Positions 50,813-59,806 of a stretch of 64,000 nt of DNA are shown here, in pieces. Source of the DNA: Blastopirellula retiformator (GTDB taxonomy: Bacteria; Planctomycetota; Planctomycetia; Pirellulales; Pirellulaceae); NCBI RefSeq assembly GCF_007859755.1, contig NZ_SJPF01000005.1, forward strand, positions 310,001-374,000. Reading direction: 5' to 3'. The notes under the pieces were generated by a model. The model worked only from the letters and a program-made list of their open reading frames with translations. It did not search any database and had not been told where the DNA came from. Within the stretch, counting starts at the first letter, position 1. Every line of letters starts with the position of its first letter. Both the position numbers and the translations under genes were made by a program.

Positions 50813-50961
50813 TCAAGTGAACGGGGGAGTAGCCGAACAGGCCAAACCTTGCTCGGCGACACAACGTCGCCGTCATTTCCTGTCGCTTCCGGAATTCTCC
50901 GAGCATTCGAAAAACTCGTTATTTCGGTCAGACAGGCGATGGCCTGCTGCCAATCGTCCTC

Positions 50962-51034
50962 GAAAAGGCAAACCGATCGTGAGGTCGGGACGCAAAGCCA
51001 AGGGCCATGCAAATGGTCGCCAGGCTGCCGAAGG
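50962..51034 (+). ncRNA. Cyclic-di-GMP class I riboswitch aptamer (GEMM-I)
   Basis: The sequence carries the GEMM-I core in order. GGCAAACC is at 50967-50974. A six-pair stem CCGATC/GGTCGG is closed by a GNRA loop, GTGA. The hallmark GGGACGCAAAGCC (50987-50999) follows. A second stem, GGCCAT/ATGGTC, has a GCAA loop. It ends in CCAGGCTGCCGA, whose TGCC pairs back with GGCA to form P1. In GEMM-I the GNRA loop docks into a receptor in the other arm. It lies ~180 nt upstream of the Flp pilin ATG on the same strand, so it should control flp in response to c-di-GMP. No terminator lies directly after the aptamer, so the expression platform is unclear. Confidence 0.88.
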
Positions 51035-51038
51035 GTGT

Positions 51039-51056
51039 GGTGCGAACGTTCGCACC
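51039..51056. promoter_or_regulatory. Perfect palindrome between riboswitch and flp
   Basis: GGTGCGAACGTTCGCACC is an 18-bp perfect dyad that starts four bases after the aptamer. In RNA it could form a hairpin competing with aptamer folding; in DNA it could bind a dimeric regulator. Confidence 0.5.
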
Positions 51057-51216
51057 GCGAATGAGCCTAGATGGCGAAACGAAGGACGTGGCGAAATTCG
51101 TCGTAGGTTGATTTTCAGTTGCAGCTTGCAGGCCGACGTCGGAGACAACGTCAGCGACTGAGAGTCAAAATCGCATCCTTGTTAAATGCCGCTTTTAGGC
51201 ACTGTGGAGAGATCTC

Positions 51217-51464: not shown

Positions 51465-51477
51465 ACCCGTTTATTCG

Positions 51478-51530
51478 AAAAGCCCCTTTGACGTCCTCAG
51501 CTGGTCGACGCCAAAGCGGGCTTTTTTTTT
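51478..51530 (+). terminator. Rho-independent terminator after flp
   Basis: AAAAGCCCCTTTG pairs, with one or two mismatches, with CAAAGCGGGCTTTT across a loop, followed by nine T. Confidence 0.85.
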
Positions 51531-51745
51531 CGCCGCCGATCGACGGCTGGCGATGGGGAAAAGGTAGTGACGCGGCGGAGCGACTCGCCACCGTCGTGAA
51601 AAGTAGCGGAAAACCTGCGGCTGCGTCCGTCGTCACGTGCGGCGCATGCTACGTTTTCTGACCAGTCCGCGCAGGCCGCGCGGATCGACACGATTCATGA
51701 GAAGACCGAGAAGCGATCTCGGCGGGGAGCACTCAGGAGAGAACC

Positions 51746-52312
51746 ATGGAATACGTAAACGATTTGGGCGCCGCGATCGCGGAGCATTGGCCGGTTTGGG
51801 TTGTGACCATCACCTTGATCGTCGCTGCGGTGATTGACGGCTTTCAGCTGAAGGTCCCCAACTGGATCACGTTCCCCTTCATCATCGCCGGCTGGATCTA
51901 CAGCGTGGCGGCGTTCGGCTGGGAAGGTCTCGGCTGGAGCATGCTGGGCACGGTCGTCGGTTTGGCGCTGTTGCTGCCGGCTTATGCGATCGGCGGCATG
52001 GGCGCGGGCGACGTCAAGCTGCTAGCTGGCGTTGGCGCCTGGATGTATGGCACGACCACGTTCTACGCATTCTGCATTTCGGCCGTTGTCGGCGCGGTGC
52101 TGGCGATCGGCATGGTCTTGTTCCGAGGGGCTTGGGAAAAGCACTCGAACCAGGCCTGGATGATTTTGAACGAAATTCTGACGATTCGTGACCCGAATCA
52201 GCTTTCGGCGATCGCCGCAGAACGGAAGCCGACCATGATGTTGCTTCCGTACGGCATCCCGATCGCGATCGGCTCGATCGCCTACTTCATTTGGATGGGA
52301 ATGCTGGTATGA
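51746..52312 (+). CDS. cpaA: Prepilin peptidase CpaA/TadV
   Basis: A 188-residue integral-membrane aspartic peptidase (A24 family) that processes Flp prepilins. It consists of about five or six membrane helices with the GxGD motif in 'GGMGAGDVKLL' near 84; the partner Asp is in 'AAVIDGFQLKVPNW' near 30. It lacks the N-terminal methylase domain, as in TadV/CpaA. Its stop overlaps the tadE start (ATGA at 52309-52312), so the two are translationally coupled. Confidence 0.9.
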   Translation: MEYVNDLGAAIAEHWPVWVVTITLIVAAVIDGFQLKVPNWITFPFIIAGWIYSVAAFGWEGLGWSMLGTVVGLALLLPAYAIGGMGAGDVKLLAGVGAWMYGTTTFYAFCISAVVGAVLAIGMVLFRGAWEKHSNQAWMILNEILTIRDPNQLSAIAAERKPTMMLLPYGIPIAIGSIAYFIWMGMLV

Positions 52313-52833
52313 CCCCCACACGAACCGTCTCTGCGGAAGCTGACGTAAATCTCGAGACCTGGACGCCATGTAAAGATGGGTCGACTTTAACGACGCATCA
52401 GTTCAGGTTACATCGACCTTGCCGATTGTACCGATCAAAACGAACGGGAGCGGCTGTCGTCGAATTCGCGATCGTCGCGCCGCTCTTCTTCCTGTTGGTG
52501 TTCGGCATGATCGAATACGGCCGGATGGTGATGGTTCAGCAGGTGATTACGAACGCGTCGCGCGAAGGAGCTCGCCGAGCGGTTCTCGATGGGACGACCA
52601 CTAGCGAAGTGGTCGCCGCGGTCGAAGAATTTCTCGACCAGGCTTCGGTCAACGGACCGAACCTGCAGGTCCGTGTGACGCCGGATCCCCCTGGTACCGC
52701 CGAAAATGGCGACCCAGTGGGAGTGACGATTTCCGTTCCGTTTAGCGACGTCAGTTGGATCCCTTCCCCGATGTATCTCGGGGGAACGACGTTGGAAGCG
52801 AAGACGGTAATGCGTCGCGAAGGAATCAAATAA
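52309..52833 (+). CDS. tadE: TadE-type minor pseudopilin
   Basis: 174 residues from the ATG overlapping the cpaA stop. After a basic ~45-residue N-terminus comes the TadE domain: 'RTGAAVVEFAIVAPLFFLLV', with Glu in the helix start and 'GMIEYGRMVMVQQVITNASR' following. TadE-like proteins are processed like pilins and help initiate the pilus. The N-terminus is longer than usual, and an internal start is possible. No tadF or tadG follows. Confidence 0.85.
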   Translation: MTPTRTVSAEADVNLETWTPCKDGSTLTTHQFRLHRPCRLYRSKRTGAAVVEFAIVAPLFFLLVFGMIEYGRMVMVQQVITNASREGARRAVLDGTTTSEVVAAVEEFLDQASVNGPNLQVRVTPDPPGTAENGDPVGVTISVPFSDVSWIPSPMYLGGTTLEAKTVMRREGIK

Positions 52834-53019
52834 ACGACTCCAGATGGCGCCAGATGCGACAGTGGAATCGACTGAATCGGTTGTAGTGGTGCGCTGGCGT
52901 GGGTTGGCTTCGCATCGAAAGTACGCCGATGAAGGAATTAACTATTTTGCGCTATGGCCAAGCGCTCATTGCTAGCACGTTTACGACGGCACGGAGGCTA
53001 GCAAACTAAGGAAACATTC

Positions 53020-54180
53020 ATGCGTCCCAAATCGTTAATTCTGATCGTATTCGCCCTGGGCTGTGGGCTGGTAGCCTCGATCGGCATCAGCCAGGTTCTG
53101 GAAAGCAAAAGCCAGCAGGCCGCCGCTCCCCAGATAGAGATGGAGAACATCTTCGTCGCGATCGAAGATATCGACATCAACGAGCCGCTGACCCCGGAAC
53201 TGATCAAGCTTGAGCCGTGGCCCAAAGACAAAGTGCCCGAAGGCGCGGTCACCAACCTGGAAGAGCTCGAGAATCGTCGCCCCCGCGTGCGTCTGTACGC
53301 TGGTGAGCCGATTCTGGAACGCAAGCTGTTTGGGTCGAACGAAGACAAGGGCGCCTCGAAGATGATTCCGTCGGGCTACCGCGTGCACTCGGTTCGCGTG
53401 ACCGCCGAGAGCTCGGCCTCTGGGCTGATCTTGCCGGGCGACCGCGTCGATGTGCTGGTTTACCTGCGTAGCTCGGGCGCAATCAACAAGACGCTGACCC
53501 GCACCATTTTGGAGAACGTGCGCGTCTTCGCGGTGAACGAACAAACGCATCGCGAAACCGACTCGGAAGGAAACACGATCAACGCCAAGACGGTTTCGCT
53601 GCTGGTGAAGCCGAGCCAGGTCGAGATTTTGATGTTGGCGAGCCAACTGGGCCAATTGAGCCTGTCGCTACGTCCGCCGAACGAACAAGTGACCGACGCC
53701 GACGAAACCGACGACGCCACGGTTGAGGAGCTGTTGGGCATCGACGAAGACGCTGACCCGAAGAAGACGGAACGCAAGCCGATCGCCAAGAAGGAGTCGG
53801 ACTCTGGCGGCGGGTTCCTTGGTTTCCTGCAGAACTACGGCGGCAGCAAACCGCTGGAAGTTCCGGTCGCCGAGACCGGCCCGCAGTGGACGATGGACCT
53901 GCTCGACCCGAACGGCGTGCGTCGCTTTGAGTTTGGTGAAGAAGGCAAGCTTCCGACCGAAGTCGCACCGGGCGCCGCCAGCGCACCGTCGCCGGCTCCG
54001 GTTTCCGTCCCAATGCAAGGATTGGGCGCTCCGGCGATGCCGCTGGGACCGGGCTTCGCTCCGAATGGAGCGGGCGCCGCGGGCGGTCTTGGACTGCCGA
54101 GCGGAATGACCGGAAGCGGCGATTTGAGAATGGATGACGCGTCGCCTGACGACGCGGCTCCGCAGGGCCTGGATGACTAA
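53020..54180 (+). CDS. cpaB: Flp pilus assembly protein CpaB/RcpC
   Basis: 386 residues. An N-terminal hydrophobic segment (4-22) is followed by an SAF domain ('VAIEDIDINEPLTPELIKL', 'GEPILERKLF') and the RcpC region with 'SGLILPGDRVDVLVYLRS'. It sits in the periplasm near the secretin and is thought to modulate it. The C-terminal ~140 residues are acidic then Pro/Gly/Ala-rich and look lineage-specific. The preceding gap (52834-53019) shows no gene. Confidence 0.88.
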   Translation: MRPKSLILIVFALGCGLVASIGISQVLESKSQQAAAPQIEMENIFVAIEDIDINEPLTPELIKLEPWPKDKVPEGAVTNLEELENRRPRVRLYAGEPILERKLFGSNEDKGASKMIPSGYRVHSVRVTAESSASGLILPGDRVDVLVYLRSSGAINKTLTRTILENVRVFAVNEQTHRETDSEGNTINAKTVSLLVKPSQVEILMLASQLGQLSLSLRPPNEQVTDADETDDATVEELLGIDEDADPKKTERKPIAKKESDSGGGFLGFLQNYGGSKPLEVPVAETGPQWTMDLLDPNGVRRFEFGEEGKLPTEVAPGAASAPSPAPVSVPMQGLGAPAMPLGPGFAPNGAGAAGGLGLPSGMTGSGDLRMDDASPDDAAPQGLDD

Positions 54181-54259
54181 GTAAGCAGACAACGGAATTC
54201 GATTCGGGCAAGTGGGTTCACGGATTGAACGCACGCCCAATACGCAAGGATGTTCACGG

Positions 54260-55882
54260 ATGATCACTTTTCGCCGCCCTCTGGGGTTTCTGTATCGCTG
54301 TGCGGTCGCTTGTATGCTGACCGCACTGGCGACCGCCGCCCACGCCCAAAATCCGGGCGCCGTGCCGAGCGTTAACTTTTCGGTCGACGCTCCCAATCAG
54401 CGATTGGAGATGATGGTCAACTCCAGTCGCATCTTCACGCTGGACGCCAAGATTCCGAAGGCGCAGGTCAACAACCCTGACTTGCTGCGGTTGACCCCGC
54501 TGGCCCCGAACAAGATCCAAGTCTCGGCCCTCAAGCCGGGCGTGACGCAGGTCAACCTGTGGAACGAGGACGGCAATATCCACACGATCGACGTGATCAT
54601 CATCGGCGACGGTCGCGAATTGCAGCTGTTGCTCGAGACGGAGTTCCCCAACTCCTCGATCAAGGTGCGTCCGCTGGCCAGCAGCGTCGTGCTCTCGGGC
54701 TATGTCGATCGCCCGGAAGCGGTCAGCCGAATCGTGGCGATTGCCGAAGATTACTACCCGAAAGTCATTAACAACATCAACGTCGGCGGCGTGCAGCAGG
54801 TGATGCTGAAGGTGAAGGTATACGAAGTCTCGCGCACCAAGTTGCGTCAGCTCGGCATCGACTGGGCCTCGATCGGCAGCGAGTACTTCGTCAGCTCGAC
54901 CGCCTCCAGCATCCTGGGCCCGGCCGGCGTGTTGACCAGCGGCGCCCGCGACGGCCTGGAAGCGACCGCCCAAACGGTTCAGTTTGGCGTGCTCGGCTCG
55001 CAAACGCAGTTTTACGGTTTTATGGAAGCCCTGCGGCAAAAAAACGTCGCCAAATTGACGTCGGAACCGACGCTGACCACCATTAGCGGACGACCAGCGA
55101 GCTTTCTGTCGGGCGGTGAAGTGCCGATTCAAGTCGCCTCCGGCCTCGGTACTACCTCGATTGAGTTCAAAGACTTTGGTACGCGAGTCGACTTTGTGCC
55201 GATCGTCTTGGGTAATGGCAATCTGAAGTTGGAGGTGCGGCCAGAAGTGAGCGAAGTCGACGCCAGTTTGGCGGTCGGTGGCACGCCTGGTTTCCGGACG
55301 CGACGGGCCGACACCGCCGTCGAGATGAAAGCGGGACAGTCGATGGCGTTGGCCGGATTGATTCAGGAAAAGATCGAAACGGAAAGCCGCGGTGTACCGT
55401 ACTTGGCCGATTTGCCGTGGGTTGGCGCCGCGTTCCGCCGCAACGTCGATCGTCGCAACGAAGTAGAACTGTTGATCATCGTGACGCCCGAGTTGATTGG
55501 CCCGCTCAATCCGGAAGAAGTGCCGTGCGAATACCCCGGCTCGAACACCGGCATCGTCAACGACTGCGAACTGTATGGTCGCGGTTATGTCGAAGTTCCG
55601 GCTTGCCCGCCGGGCGGCGCCTGCATCGATGGCGGCATGCCGGGGATGATCGGCCCGTACGACGGCGAAAACATCGCCCCGGGACCGCCGGTGATCGAGA
55701 TGTCGGAACCGGTGATTCAGGGTCAGATGATGCATTCGCCGGCTCCGGCGCATCAGCCGGCCCCAGCCCCGAGCCCCGCTCCGGCCAAGCCGGCGATGGT
55801 GGAAACGTCAAATCCGCTGCAGCCGGCGCTGTCGGAACCAGCGTTGATCGGACCGGTCGGTTATGACGCTTTGAGATTTTAA
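54260..55882 (+). CDS. cpaC: Tad pilus secretin CpaC/RcpA
   Basis: The outer-membrane channel of the Tad system. 540 residues from the ATG at 54260, with AAGGA upstream; the frame is open to 54212. A signal peptide ends at 'AAHAQ'. The pilus-secretin N-terminal domain ('RIFTLDAKIPKAQVNNPDLL') and a BON-like part ('LASSVVLSGYVDRPEAV') precede the secretin domain ('TSEPTLTTISGRPASFLSGG', 'VEMKAGQSMALAGLI'). A Pro/Ala/Gly-rich tail follows after residue ~430. Confidence 0.92.
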   Translation: MITFRRPLGFLYRCAVACMLTALATAAHAQNPGAVPSVNFSVDAPNQRLEMMVNSSRIFTLDAKIPKAQVNNPDLLRLTPLAPNKIQVSALKPGVTQVNLWNEDGNIHTIDVIIIGDGRELQLLLETEFPNSSIKVRPLASSVVLSGYVDRPEAVSRIVAIAEDYYPKVINNINVGGVQQVMLKVKVYEVSRTKLRQLGIDWASIGSEYFVSSTASSILGPAGVLTSGARDGLEATAQTVQFGVLGSQTQFYGFMEALRQKNVAKLTSEPTLTTISGRPASFLSGGEVPIQVASGLGTTSIEFKDFGTRVDFVPIVLGNGNLKLEVRPEVSEVDASLAVGGTPGFRTRRADTAVEMKAGQSMALAGLIQEKIETESRGVPYLADLPWVGAAFRRNVDRRNEVELLIIVTPELIGPLNPEEVPCEYPGSNTGIVNDCELYGRGYVEVPACPPGGACIDGGMPGMIGPYDGENIAPGPPVIEMSEPVIQGQMMHSPAPAHQPAPAPSPAPAKPAMVETSNPLQPALSEPALIGPVGYDALRF

Positions 55883-55981
55883 AAGCGTCGCGCCGATCGC
55901 GTACTACACTTACTTAACTTGCACTTTGGCTAAGTCCGTCTGTAGTAGCGCCTTGGCGACGCATTAAGAAGAAAAGCGGCT

Positions 55982-57238
55982 ATGAACAACGTATTACGAG
56001 TCGCGTTGGTGGATCCAACCGACTCGACGAGAGAAATGCTGAAGTCGACGCTGCTCGGCATGGAAGTAATCTGGCTCGAAGCCGAGTGCTCTCGGTACGA
56101 GTTCTTTGCGGACGTGGTCGGGCAAACCAATCCCGACATTGGCGTCGTCTCCCTGGACGGCAATCCCGAGAAAGCGCTGGCCCTGATCGAAGAGCTGCAC
56201 GACGTGAATCCGGAGTGCAGCATCCTGGTCGTCAGCGCCTCGACCGATGGCAACATGATCTTGCGCTCCATGCGCGCCGGCGCCAAAGAGTTTCTGACCC
56301 ACCCCGTGGTGCTGGAAGACCTGGTCGCCGCCCTCGAGCGAATCAGCAATCAGAAGTTCGGCAAGGGCGAATCACGCTCGCGCGGTTGTCGGGTGATCAC
56401 CGTTGGCGGCGCCACCGGCGGCGTCGGCGCGACTAGCCTGGCAGTCAATCTCGGCTGTATCCTGGCGTCGAACGAGAAGAACAACGTGGTGCTGATCGAC
56501 CTCGATCTCGCCTTGGGCGACGCCGACGTGTTCCTTGACACCATTCCCGACTACACGTTGGTCGACGTCGCGCAGAACATCCAGCGACTCGACTTCAACT
56601 TGCTAAAGCGATCGTTGACCAAGCACTCGTCCGGTCTGTACCTGCTGCCGCGACCGGTGCAGTTGCATGACGACTCGCTGATCAGCCCAGCCGACTTCTC
56701 TCGCGTGATCGGCTTGCTTAAGGCGACCTTCACGCACCTGATCATCGACCTGTCGAAGGGGTTCCGTCCGCTCGACTTCGTCGCGATGCGAGAAGCGCAT
56801 GACAACCTGATGGTGATTCAGCTTGATCTTCCCTGTCTGCGCAACGTCGTGCGGCTGATGATGTCGTTTGCCGAAACCGACGGTTTGAAAGAGAAGACCC
56901 GCATCGTGGTTAATCGCGTCGGCCTCGACTCGGGCCAGATCAGCCTGAAGAAGGCGCAGGAGACGATCGGCAGCGAGATCTATTGGCAGATCCCCAACGA
57001 CTATCGTGTGATGGTCGAGGTGCGCAACAACGGCGTGCCGCTGATCGAACAGGCTCCTCGGGCCGGCATCACGCAGGCGATTTCGAGCCTGGCCGATGCG
57101 TTGTCAGGCGACAGCAAGAAGGCGGCCGCGGCCGGCAAGGCGGGAATCAGCCGTTGGTTTGGCTTCCTCGGCGGCAGCAAGCAGGCCGGCGAAAAGCAAG
57201 CTTCGGCCGAAGAGGGCGAAGAGACCGTCTCGAAGTAG
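55982..57238 (+). CDS. cpaE: Tad pilus ATPase CpaE/TadZ
   Basis: 418 residues with an N-terminal receiver-like domain (1-120) and a MinD/ParA-type ATPase with a deviant P-loop in 'VGGATGGVGATSLAVNL' near 141. TadZ/CpaE localises the pilus machinery at the pole. 'VLIDLDLALGDADVFLD' is the ParA-like box. The C-terminus is Ala/Lys-rich. Confidence 0.9.
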   Translation: MNNVLRVALVDPTDSTREMLKSTLLGMEVIWLEAECSRYEFFADVVGQTNPDIGVVSLDGNPEKALALIEELHDVNPECSILVVSASTDGNMILRSMRAGAKEFLTHPVVLEDLVAALERISNQKFGKGESRSRGCRVITVGGATGGVGATSLAVNLGCILASNEKNNVVLIDLDLALGDADVFLDTIPDYTLVDVAQNIQRLDFNLLKRSLTKHSSGLYLLPRPVQLHDDSLISPADFSRVIGLLKATFTHLIIDLSKGFRPLDFVAMREAHDNLMVIQLDLPCLRNVVRLMMSFAETDGLKEKTRIVVNRVGLDSGQISLKKAQETIGSEIYWQIPNDYRVMVEVRNNGVPLIEQAPRAGITQAISSLADALSGDSKKAAAAGKAGISRWFGFLGGSKQAGEKQASAEEGEETVSK

Positions 57239-57478
57239 CCGTTGGCTCGCATTCTCGTGAAACAAGGCCCCGCCAATCTCGAGCCGGGCGTGGGTCGCAG
57301 TTGCCGCAAAATCGGTACGACCCGATCGGTGCGCAAGGTCGCCGAAATTCTTCCGACATTGTCAATCGTATGACGTATATTTTCCACGAGGTCCAGTGGC
57401 CGTCGCCCCTGACGGTATGCGCTCGATTTCTAGAACATCCGCATATAGCGTCGCATGAAGCCGACGCGGAGAAAAGAC

Positions 57479-58804
<1,326 letters not shown>

Positions 58805-58843
58805 CCCCTAGTTCCAGGAAGGCGCCAAACGAGGTAAGCCCCC

Positions 58844-59806
58844 ATGTTGTCAATTGTAATCCCTATCGTCGTCTTTGTAGGCATCGCCGCCTTGGTAGGC
58901 GGCGTAGCGCTCAGTTTCCGGGGCGCCGGGAGCGAAGAAGCGGAAATGCGGCTCGATGCGCTGACCGGCGCTGGTCAGCCGCACGGAAAAGAGGCGGAGC
59001 AGAACACCGGGTTGCTCTCCGGTTTTCAGGACGAAGGAAACGCCCTGGAAGCCTACATCATGCAGTTCTTCAATCTCCGGTTGTTTCTCGATCAGGCCGA
59101 CATGTCGATGTCGGTCGCCAACCTGGTGATGATTTGCGGCGGCATCGGCGCTGCCGGCGGCATCCTGCCGATCTTGCTGGGGGCGCCAATCTGGATCGCA
59201 CCGATTACCGCGCTGTTATTGGCCGGCATTCCGATCCTGGTCGTCCACTTCAAACGCAAATCGCGGCTCAACAAGTTCGGCAAGCAGTTGCCCGACGCGC
59301 TGGAGTTGATCTCGCGGGCCCTTCGCGCTGGTCATAGCTTGGGCGCCGGTTTTCGCCTGGTGAGCGAAGAAATGGATGACCCGATCGGGCGCGAGTTTCA
59401 AAAGGTGTTTGAGGCCCAAAACCTGGGCGTTTCGCTGGAAGACGCGATCACCGACATGACCGAGCGGGTGCCGAACCTCGACCTGAAGTTCTTTGGCACC
59501 GCGATTATCTTGCAGCGCCAAACGGGCGGCGACTTGGCCGAAATCTTGGATAAGATCGGCCGCCTGGTTCGTCAACGTCTCGAACTGTTCGGCACCATTC
59601 AGGCGCTGACCGGCGAAGGTCGTATCTCTGGCATCGTGCTGCTAGGTTTGCCGCCGGCGCTGTTTGTGGCGCTGTGGCGACTCAACCCAGGCTACGTCAT
59701 GACGCTGTTCACCGACCCGCTTGGCAACAAGATGCTGGCCGGGGCGATTCTGATGCAGCTGATCGGCGCGTACGTCATCCAAAAAATCATCGATATCAAA
59801 GTGTAG
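58844..59806 (+). CDS. tadB: Tad pilus inner-membrane protein TadB
   Basis: A 320-residue platform protein with membrane helices near the N-terminus, at about 90-135 and at the C-terminus, around a T2SSF domain ('LPDALELISRALRAGHSLGA', 'QRQTGGDLAEILDKIGRL'). With TadC it forms the inner-membrane platform acted on by CpaF. It ends eight bases before tadC. Confidence 0.92.
   Translation: MLSIVIPIVVFVGIAALVGGVALSFRGAGSEEAEMRLDALTGAGQPHGKEAEQNTGLLSGFQDEGNALEAYIMQFFNLRLFLDQADMSMSVANLVMICGGIGAAGGILPILLGAPIWIAPITALLLAGIPILVVHFKRKSRLNKFGKQLPDALELISRALRAGHSLGAGFRLVSEEMDDPIGREFQKVFEAQNLGVSLEDAITDMTERVPNLDLKFFGTAIILQRQTGGDLAEILDKIGRLVRQRLELFGTIQALTGEGRISGIVLLGLPPALFVALWRLNPGYVMTLFTDPLGNKMLAGAILMQLIGAYVIQKIIDIKV

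Follow-up and report, generated by a model that had tools for sequence, protein, structure and literature searches.

Among the described systems that the locus reported here most resembles, the Vc2 riboswitch of Vibrio cholerae is a translational switch that depends on the P1 helix of its aptamer, and without P1 it loses c-di-GMP binding (PMC9262584). The cGAMP-sensing GEMM-I variants, found at Geobacter pilM (also studied in PMC9262584) and elsewhere, have a related aptamer, also control pilus genes and carry an A where Vc2 has G20. The Tad/Flp system of Caulobacter combines a Flp-type pilin with Tad machinery, and its pili are affected by c-di-GMP, which acts there on the activity of the pilus and leaves the amount of pilin unchanged (PMC6581867). 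Building on an aptamer conserved before flp, two co-varying pairings around it and the overlap of one of them with P1, all of which we observe, we propose that a c-di-GMP-I (GGC) riboswitch controls only flp, and that its expression platform straddles the aptamer and adopts two mutually exclusive states. An anti-P1 helix and a loop-bulge pseudoknot would form this platform, and c-di-GMP-dependent strand competition would set pilin supply in the Pirellulales; we give this reading a probability of about 0.6. To our knowledge, the c-di-GMP biology of Planctomycetes has hardly been explored.

We analysed a stretch of 64,000 nucleotides from Blastopirellula retiformator (the window), in which a cmscan search against 4227 Rfam families returned c-di-GMP-I-GGC (RF03167) as the sole match at or above its gathering threshold, on the forward strand (64.4 bits, cut-off 59, E 6.6e-13; Table 1). 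A first-pass annotation made from the sequence had called a GEMM-I riboswitch and named the RF01051 covariance-model score as a check; in a whole-genome scan, this c-di-GMP-I model scores 64.3 bits at the same place, above its cut-off of 35. Judged by sequence and structure models, the aptamer is confirmed as a genuine member of the known c-di-GMP-I class. Its best sub-family is the GGC variant rather than plain GEMM-I, and the best match is slightly shifted from the span of 50962-51034 first given for what is nonetheless the right site. The aptamer strings quoted there are present in the sequence, including P2 with its GNRA tetraloop cap (here GUGA, GTGA in the DNA) and P3 with its GCAA cap.

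Positions 50965, 50967, 50994 and 51028 are what we take to be the equivalents of the Vc2 ligand contacts A18, G20, A47 and C92, and G50967, A50994 and C51028 are the residues expected at the last three. Because the aptamer belongs to this family and has a G where cGAMP riboswitches (GEMM-Ib) have an A, its ligand is predicted to be c-di-GMP. The 6.2-Mb genome holds no second copy of the aptamer, with just weak, chance-like matches of 17-20 bits elsewhere, and it contains 11 GGDEF matches. Close to the 3' side of the aptamer lies an 18-nt perfect palindrome, GGTGCGAACGTTCGCACC (51039-51056), which varies within the genus and stays a hairpin.

Table 1. Positions of the aptamer, its flanking arms and neighbouring genes in the window
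Feature	Position	Strand	Basis or remark
5' element GGCCTGC, candidate 5' strand of P0a, 17 nt upstream of aptamer	50941-50947	+	De novo motif, 69 non-redundant leaders
5' arm TGCCAATCGTCCTCG, last 5 nt (50958-50962) shared with P1 5' strand	50948-50962	+	Predicted duplex with 51080-51093
c-di-GMP-I-GGC aptamer	50958-51033	+	RF03167 64.4 bits, RF01051 64.3 bits
Aptamer P1 5' strand CCUCG	50958-50962	+	Last 5 nt of the 5' arm
Aptamer P1 3' strand CGAAGG	51029-51034	+	Sequence and aptamer model; predicted ligand-bound partner of 50958-50962
3' arm CGAAGGACGTGGCG, putative anti-P1 strand (RNA CGAAGGACGUGGCG)	51080-51093	+	Conserved GGRRNGAGGCA element
Bulged hairpin: outer stem 51108-51122/51154-51168, apical stem 51135-51139/51148-51152	51108-51168	+	z -4.25 in the window
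GCAGGCC, candidate 3' strand of P0a, in 5'-side bulge of hairpin	51128-51134	+	Exact complement of 50941-50947
Putative flp Shine-Dalgarno GGAGAG	51206-51211	+	Sequence; 5 nt before ATG
flp, Flp/Fap pilin, 67 aa	51217-51420	+	PF04964 38.2 bits, cut-off 32.2
Intrinsic terminator 3' of flp	51477-51531	+	Hairpin 51477-51526, then U run
Tad pilus genes: prepilin peptidase, TadE, RcpC/CpaB, secretin, TadZ-like, TadA ATPase, TadB	51746-59806	+	Pfam scan

The aptamer had been placed in the leader of flp, and the PF04964 gene indeed begins 183 nt downstream of it. The terminator described between flp and the rest of the Tad operon is also there, as a hairpin of -24 kcal/mol (z -3.3) followed by a U run, and the Tad genes start about 325 nt past the flp stop; among relatives, 50 of 69 have terminator-like sites within 150 nt after flp, against 11 in shuffles. 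From this arrangement it may reasonably be inferred that c-di-GMP control at the window locus is confined to the pilin. The idea of control over pilin rather than machinery fails as a general rule, since the same aptamer class elsewhere also precedes TadG-like, CheY-like and CheW-like genes. A second Flp-like frame elsewhere in the window's own genome (L064, G000:C1:1389121-1389219) scores a sub-threshold 25.2 bits and has no aptamer nearby.

The aptamer-flp arrangement is widespread in the order and is no one-off. RF03167 is found in 104 of 294 genomes sampled across the phylum and in 132 of 296 sampled across the order, where flp is the next gene at 89 of 134 aptamer loci and, by inspection of the downstream sequence, always lies 137-340 nt past the aptamer. 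The remaining loci of the order include those with TadG-like, CheY-like and CheW-like next genes (translations judged by eye), ten of which we recorded individually. Among 60 relatives, 52 have flp above the cut-off and 35 have RF03167; relatives from the order include Blastopirellula marina DSM 3645, the closest, and cultured Adhaeretor, Botrimarina and Bythopirellula. In a sample assembled from flp outwards (flp-first), Rfam scans placed a c-di-GMP-I aptamer, by either model, in 36 of 77 flp leaders, so the link between aptamer and flp is common and not universal. A tandem flp pair follows one aptamer at 12 of the 89 flp loci, and nine genomes of one family of the phylum (f44) carry at least 15 c-di-GMP-I-GGC copies each, several of them before prepilin-like genes and some in tandem, as at C1:2195099 and 2195216 in genome G217.

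Absent from the first-pass annotation are arms, specific to flp, on both sides of the aptamer. Without reference to downstream sequence, a de novo search for motifs upstream of the aptamer at 69 non-redundant loci recovered GGCCTGC, mostly at -16 to -24. An alignment of leaders revealed a conserved hairpin between aptamer and flp that carries GCAGGCC in a 5'-side bulge, and this hairpin, when located through the 5' complement alone, has a mean z of -3.5 over 31 relatives. At 31 of the 62 loci with a confident motif, the exact 7-nt complement occurs in the locus's own downstream leader, whereas permuting 5' elements among loci gave a mean of 10.8 complements and a maximum of 19 in 5000 trials, and shuffled leaders gave 1.25. 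Cores other than GGCCTGC have an exact complement in 13 of 40 cases against 0.42 expected, and the two strands of this pairing (P0a) change together: the complementary variants include GGTCTGC/GCAGACC, AGCCTGC/GCAGGCT, AGCCCGC/GCGGGCT, GGCCTGT/ACAGGCC, GGCCCGC/GCGGGCC, CGCCTGC/GCAGGCG, GGCCTGA/TCAGGCC, TGCCTGC/GCAGGCA and CGCCTGT/ACAGGCG.

The 3' strand of P0a was located by complementarity or by its hairpin context, as a motif search for this strand alone drifted to T-rich sequence, and the MAFFT alignment of the bulged hairpin is poor on the 3' side. No Rfam family matches the arm region or the bulged hairpin. About a quarter of flp-linked loci, including those of several genera of the same family, are without the standard 5' element. 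Another upstream element, of the GGTCAGCC type or CCAGCC, stands at nine loci from genera of the window's own family; this may be a variant form of P0a in which AGGCTG is the downstream partner.

The second pairing involves a conserved GGRRNGAGGCA element, located in 36 of 42 loci at 44-57 nt ahead of the bulge. It is complementary to the nucleotides that separate the 5' element from the aptamer, in a duplex that continues through the CCUCG of P1. In the window, the 3' arm contains an exact copy of CGAAGG, the P1 3' strand, and extends beyond it, and the duplex between the two arms is calculated at -16.3 to -17.0 kcal/mol. Across the 42 loci, matched arms give -18.3 kcal/mol against -15.7 for mismatched ones, with none of 5000 permutations as strong, and a control segment gives -11.9. 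In 41 of 42 loci this anti-P1 duplex exceeds the P1-type duplex in strength (-18.3 versus -10.7 kcal/mol), and in 40 of 42 it takes up three to five of the five P1 nucleotides. The first permutation test for P0b, in which the P1 strand was included, was not significant; p was 0.004 once the test was confined to the 9 nt that follow the 5' element. Since anti-P1 reuses nucleotides of P1, and since binding by Vc2 needs P1, the two folds should exclude each other.

The discovery set was screened with several pairing hypotheses, which makes tests on held-out leaders the more trustworthy; near-duplicate leaders were dropped by shared 12-mers, and residual shared ancestry may inflate the permutation results. 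A first held-out sample, drawn from genomes outside the discovery set, comprised 21 non-redundant flp leaders, 13 of which have the 5' element where 3.6% would be expected from other windows. Of these 13, six contain the exact P0a complement (permuted 1.6, p 0.0012), and the matched anti-P1 duplex was again the better one (p 0.012). The flp-first sample yielded the exact complement in seven of nine new leaders (permuted 1.56, p<0.0001), and for anti-P1 a p of 0.08, just short of significance. The held-out samples back P0a clearly and anti-P1 moderately.

The arms also have a restricted distribution. In the order, 66 of the 89 flp loci have the 5' element, as against none of the 45 non-flp aptamer loci, and in held-out non-flp loci it scores in 3 of 33. 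A scan for the arm pair was positive in 17 of 36 aptamer-bearing flp leaders and found none in aptamer-less flp leaders (0/20 and 0/41, together 0/61). Being missing both at those 45 non-flp aptamer loci and in flp leaders that have no aptamer, the arms are specific to the combination of aptamer and flp.

In the switch that we propose, CCUCG would pair with CGAAGG when ligand is present, forming P1 and holding c-di-GMP. When ligand is absent, the same CCUCG and the preceding 10 nt would instead pair with CGAAGGACGUGGCG over about 13 bp, giving the anti-P1 helix, and the 7-bp P0a, joining GGCCUGC to GCAGGCC in the hairpin bulge, would lock this fold as a pseudoknot. P1 would presumably form first during transcription, with ligand deciding whether the later strand displaces it. 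The locked fold would then lower flp expression and c-di-GMP would switch the pilin ON, a direction that we hold to be slightly more likely than not. Higher c-di-GMP is the usual companion of surface pili and sessile life, and because surface structures usually follow the messenger in this way we lean towards a switch in which c-di-GMP raises flp.

How either fold might reach expression was addressed by several calculations. Intrinsic terminators between aptamer and flp are not enriched in the leaders (16/69 versus 12/69 in shuffled sequence), and the Shine-Dalgarno and start region is predicted to be equally accessible in the two states (0.419 versus 0.414, p 0.32) in a nested model that leaves out the pseudoknot. 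Complementarity of the Shine-Dalgarno to the leader shows no excess over a mismatched control across loci. Two more candidate pairings were rejected: one between the aptamer 3' strand and a CAUCCUU-type stretch near the start codon, which had no excess over mismatched controls across loci, and one between a P2 strand and the start codon, taken from the minimum-free-energy fold of the window's full leader, which did not generalise and left state-constrained accessibility equal. The aptamer 3' strand of the window, AAGGGUGUGGU (51032-51042), does match AUCGCAUCCUU (51170-51180) by 11 bp of complementarity, and the genus keeps this match. No promoter was recognised, so inclusion of position 50941 onward in the transcript is putative.

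The same two states could carry the reverse sign, with the anti-P1/pseudoknot fold being the expressed one and c-di-GMP turning flp OFF. This would follow Vc2, which is described as an OFF switch of the translational kind (PMC9262584); high c-di-GMP also promotes retraction of Tad pili in Caulobacter (PMC6581867). The accessibility calculation is neutral between the signs. Nothing direct speaks against OFF, and it is the general tendency of pili and sessility to track higher c-di-GMP that leads us to regard this sign as possible but rather doubtful. A different reading of the arms is that they do not compete with P1 at all: P0a and the outer 5' arm would close a larger domain that stabilises the aptamer or protects the 5' end of the mRNA, and the CCUCG part of anti-P1 would be a by-product of conserved P1 sequence. 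P0a and P1 do not overlap, the third, flp-first sample gives P0a firmer support than anti-P1, and the terminator and accessibility tests made no downstream expression platform evident, all as such a domain would have it. We nevertheless consider it unlikely, as the co-varying duplex crosses the P1 strand, for example as UUCUCG:CGAGAA at locus L095 and UCCUCG:CGAGGA at L067, and anti-P1 beats P1 in nearly every locus compared.

The remaining alternatives dispense with a role for the arms in RNA switching. Conserved inverted 7-mers about 190 bp apart and specific to flp are what one would expect if GGCCTGC and GCAGGCC were operator half-sites of a flp-controlling protein, unrelated to RNA folding. 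Yet the hairpin whose bulge contains the 3' copy has a strongly negative mean z, the arms occur only alongside the aptamer and a third element extends the pairing into the aptamer itself, which together make a DNA-level explanation very improbable. We give even less credence to the view that this c-di-GMP-I riboswitch is an ordinary one, its 3' platform unremarkable and its arms an artefact of the many pairings searched: several other candidate pairings did test negative, but P0a was replicated in two independent held-out samples.

Placed beside known systems, the aptamer is like those described by RF03167 and RF01051 in sequence and structure and passes both cut-offs; those models have no arms, whereas flp loci carry conserved ones on both sides. 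We found no description of the arms or of the aptamer-flp case in Rfam or the searchable literature, though an earlier account of the GGC family may exist, and what we describe appears to be a flp-specific arrangement wrapped around the aptamer, conserved across the order and undescribed in the sources searched. If true, it would provide a direct RNA link from a second messenger to the subunit of a surface pilus in Planctomycetes, conserved across an order with cultured strains, and an unusual wiring of that messenger to pilus supply. From the cGAMP-sensing variants the aptamer differs by the G at the Vc2 G20 equivalent. Caulobacter shares the pilin type and the machinery, but pilin supply, rather than pilus activity, is the predicted target of c-di-GMP at the flp leader. 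Switching in Vc2 likewise depends on P1; in the flp leader, the competing strand would pair both with P1 and with nucleotides that precede the aptamer on its 5' side, and another co-varying helix would extend to the bulged hairpin. The result would be a riboswitch that has its switching strand upstream of the aptamer and a long-range pseudoknot to lock that strand, a design for which the compensatory mutants are clear.
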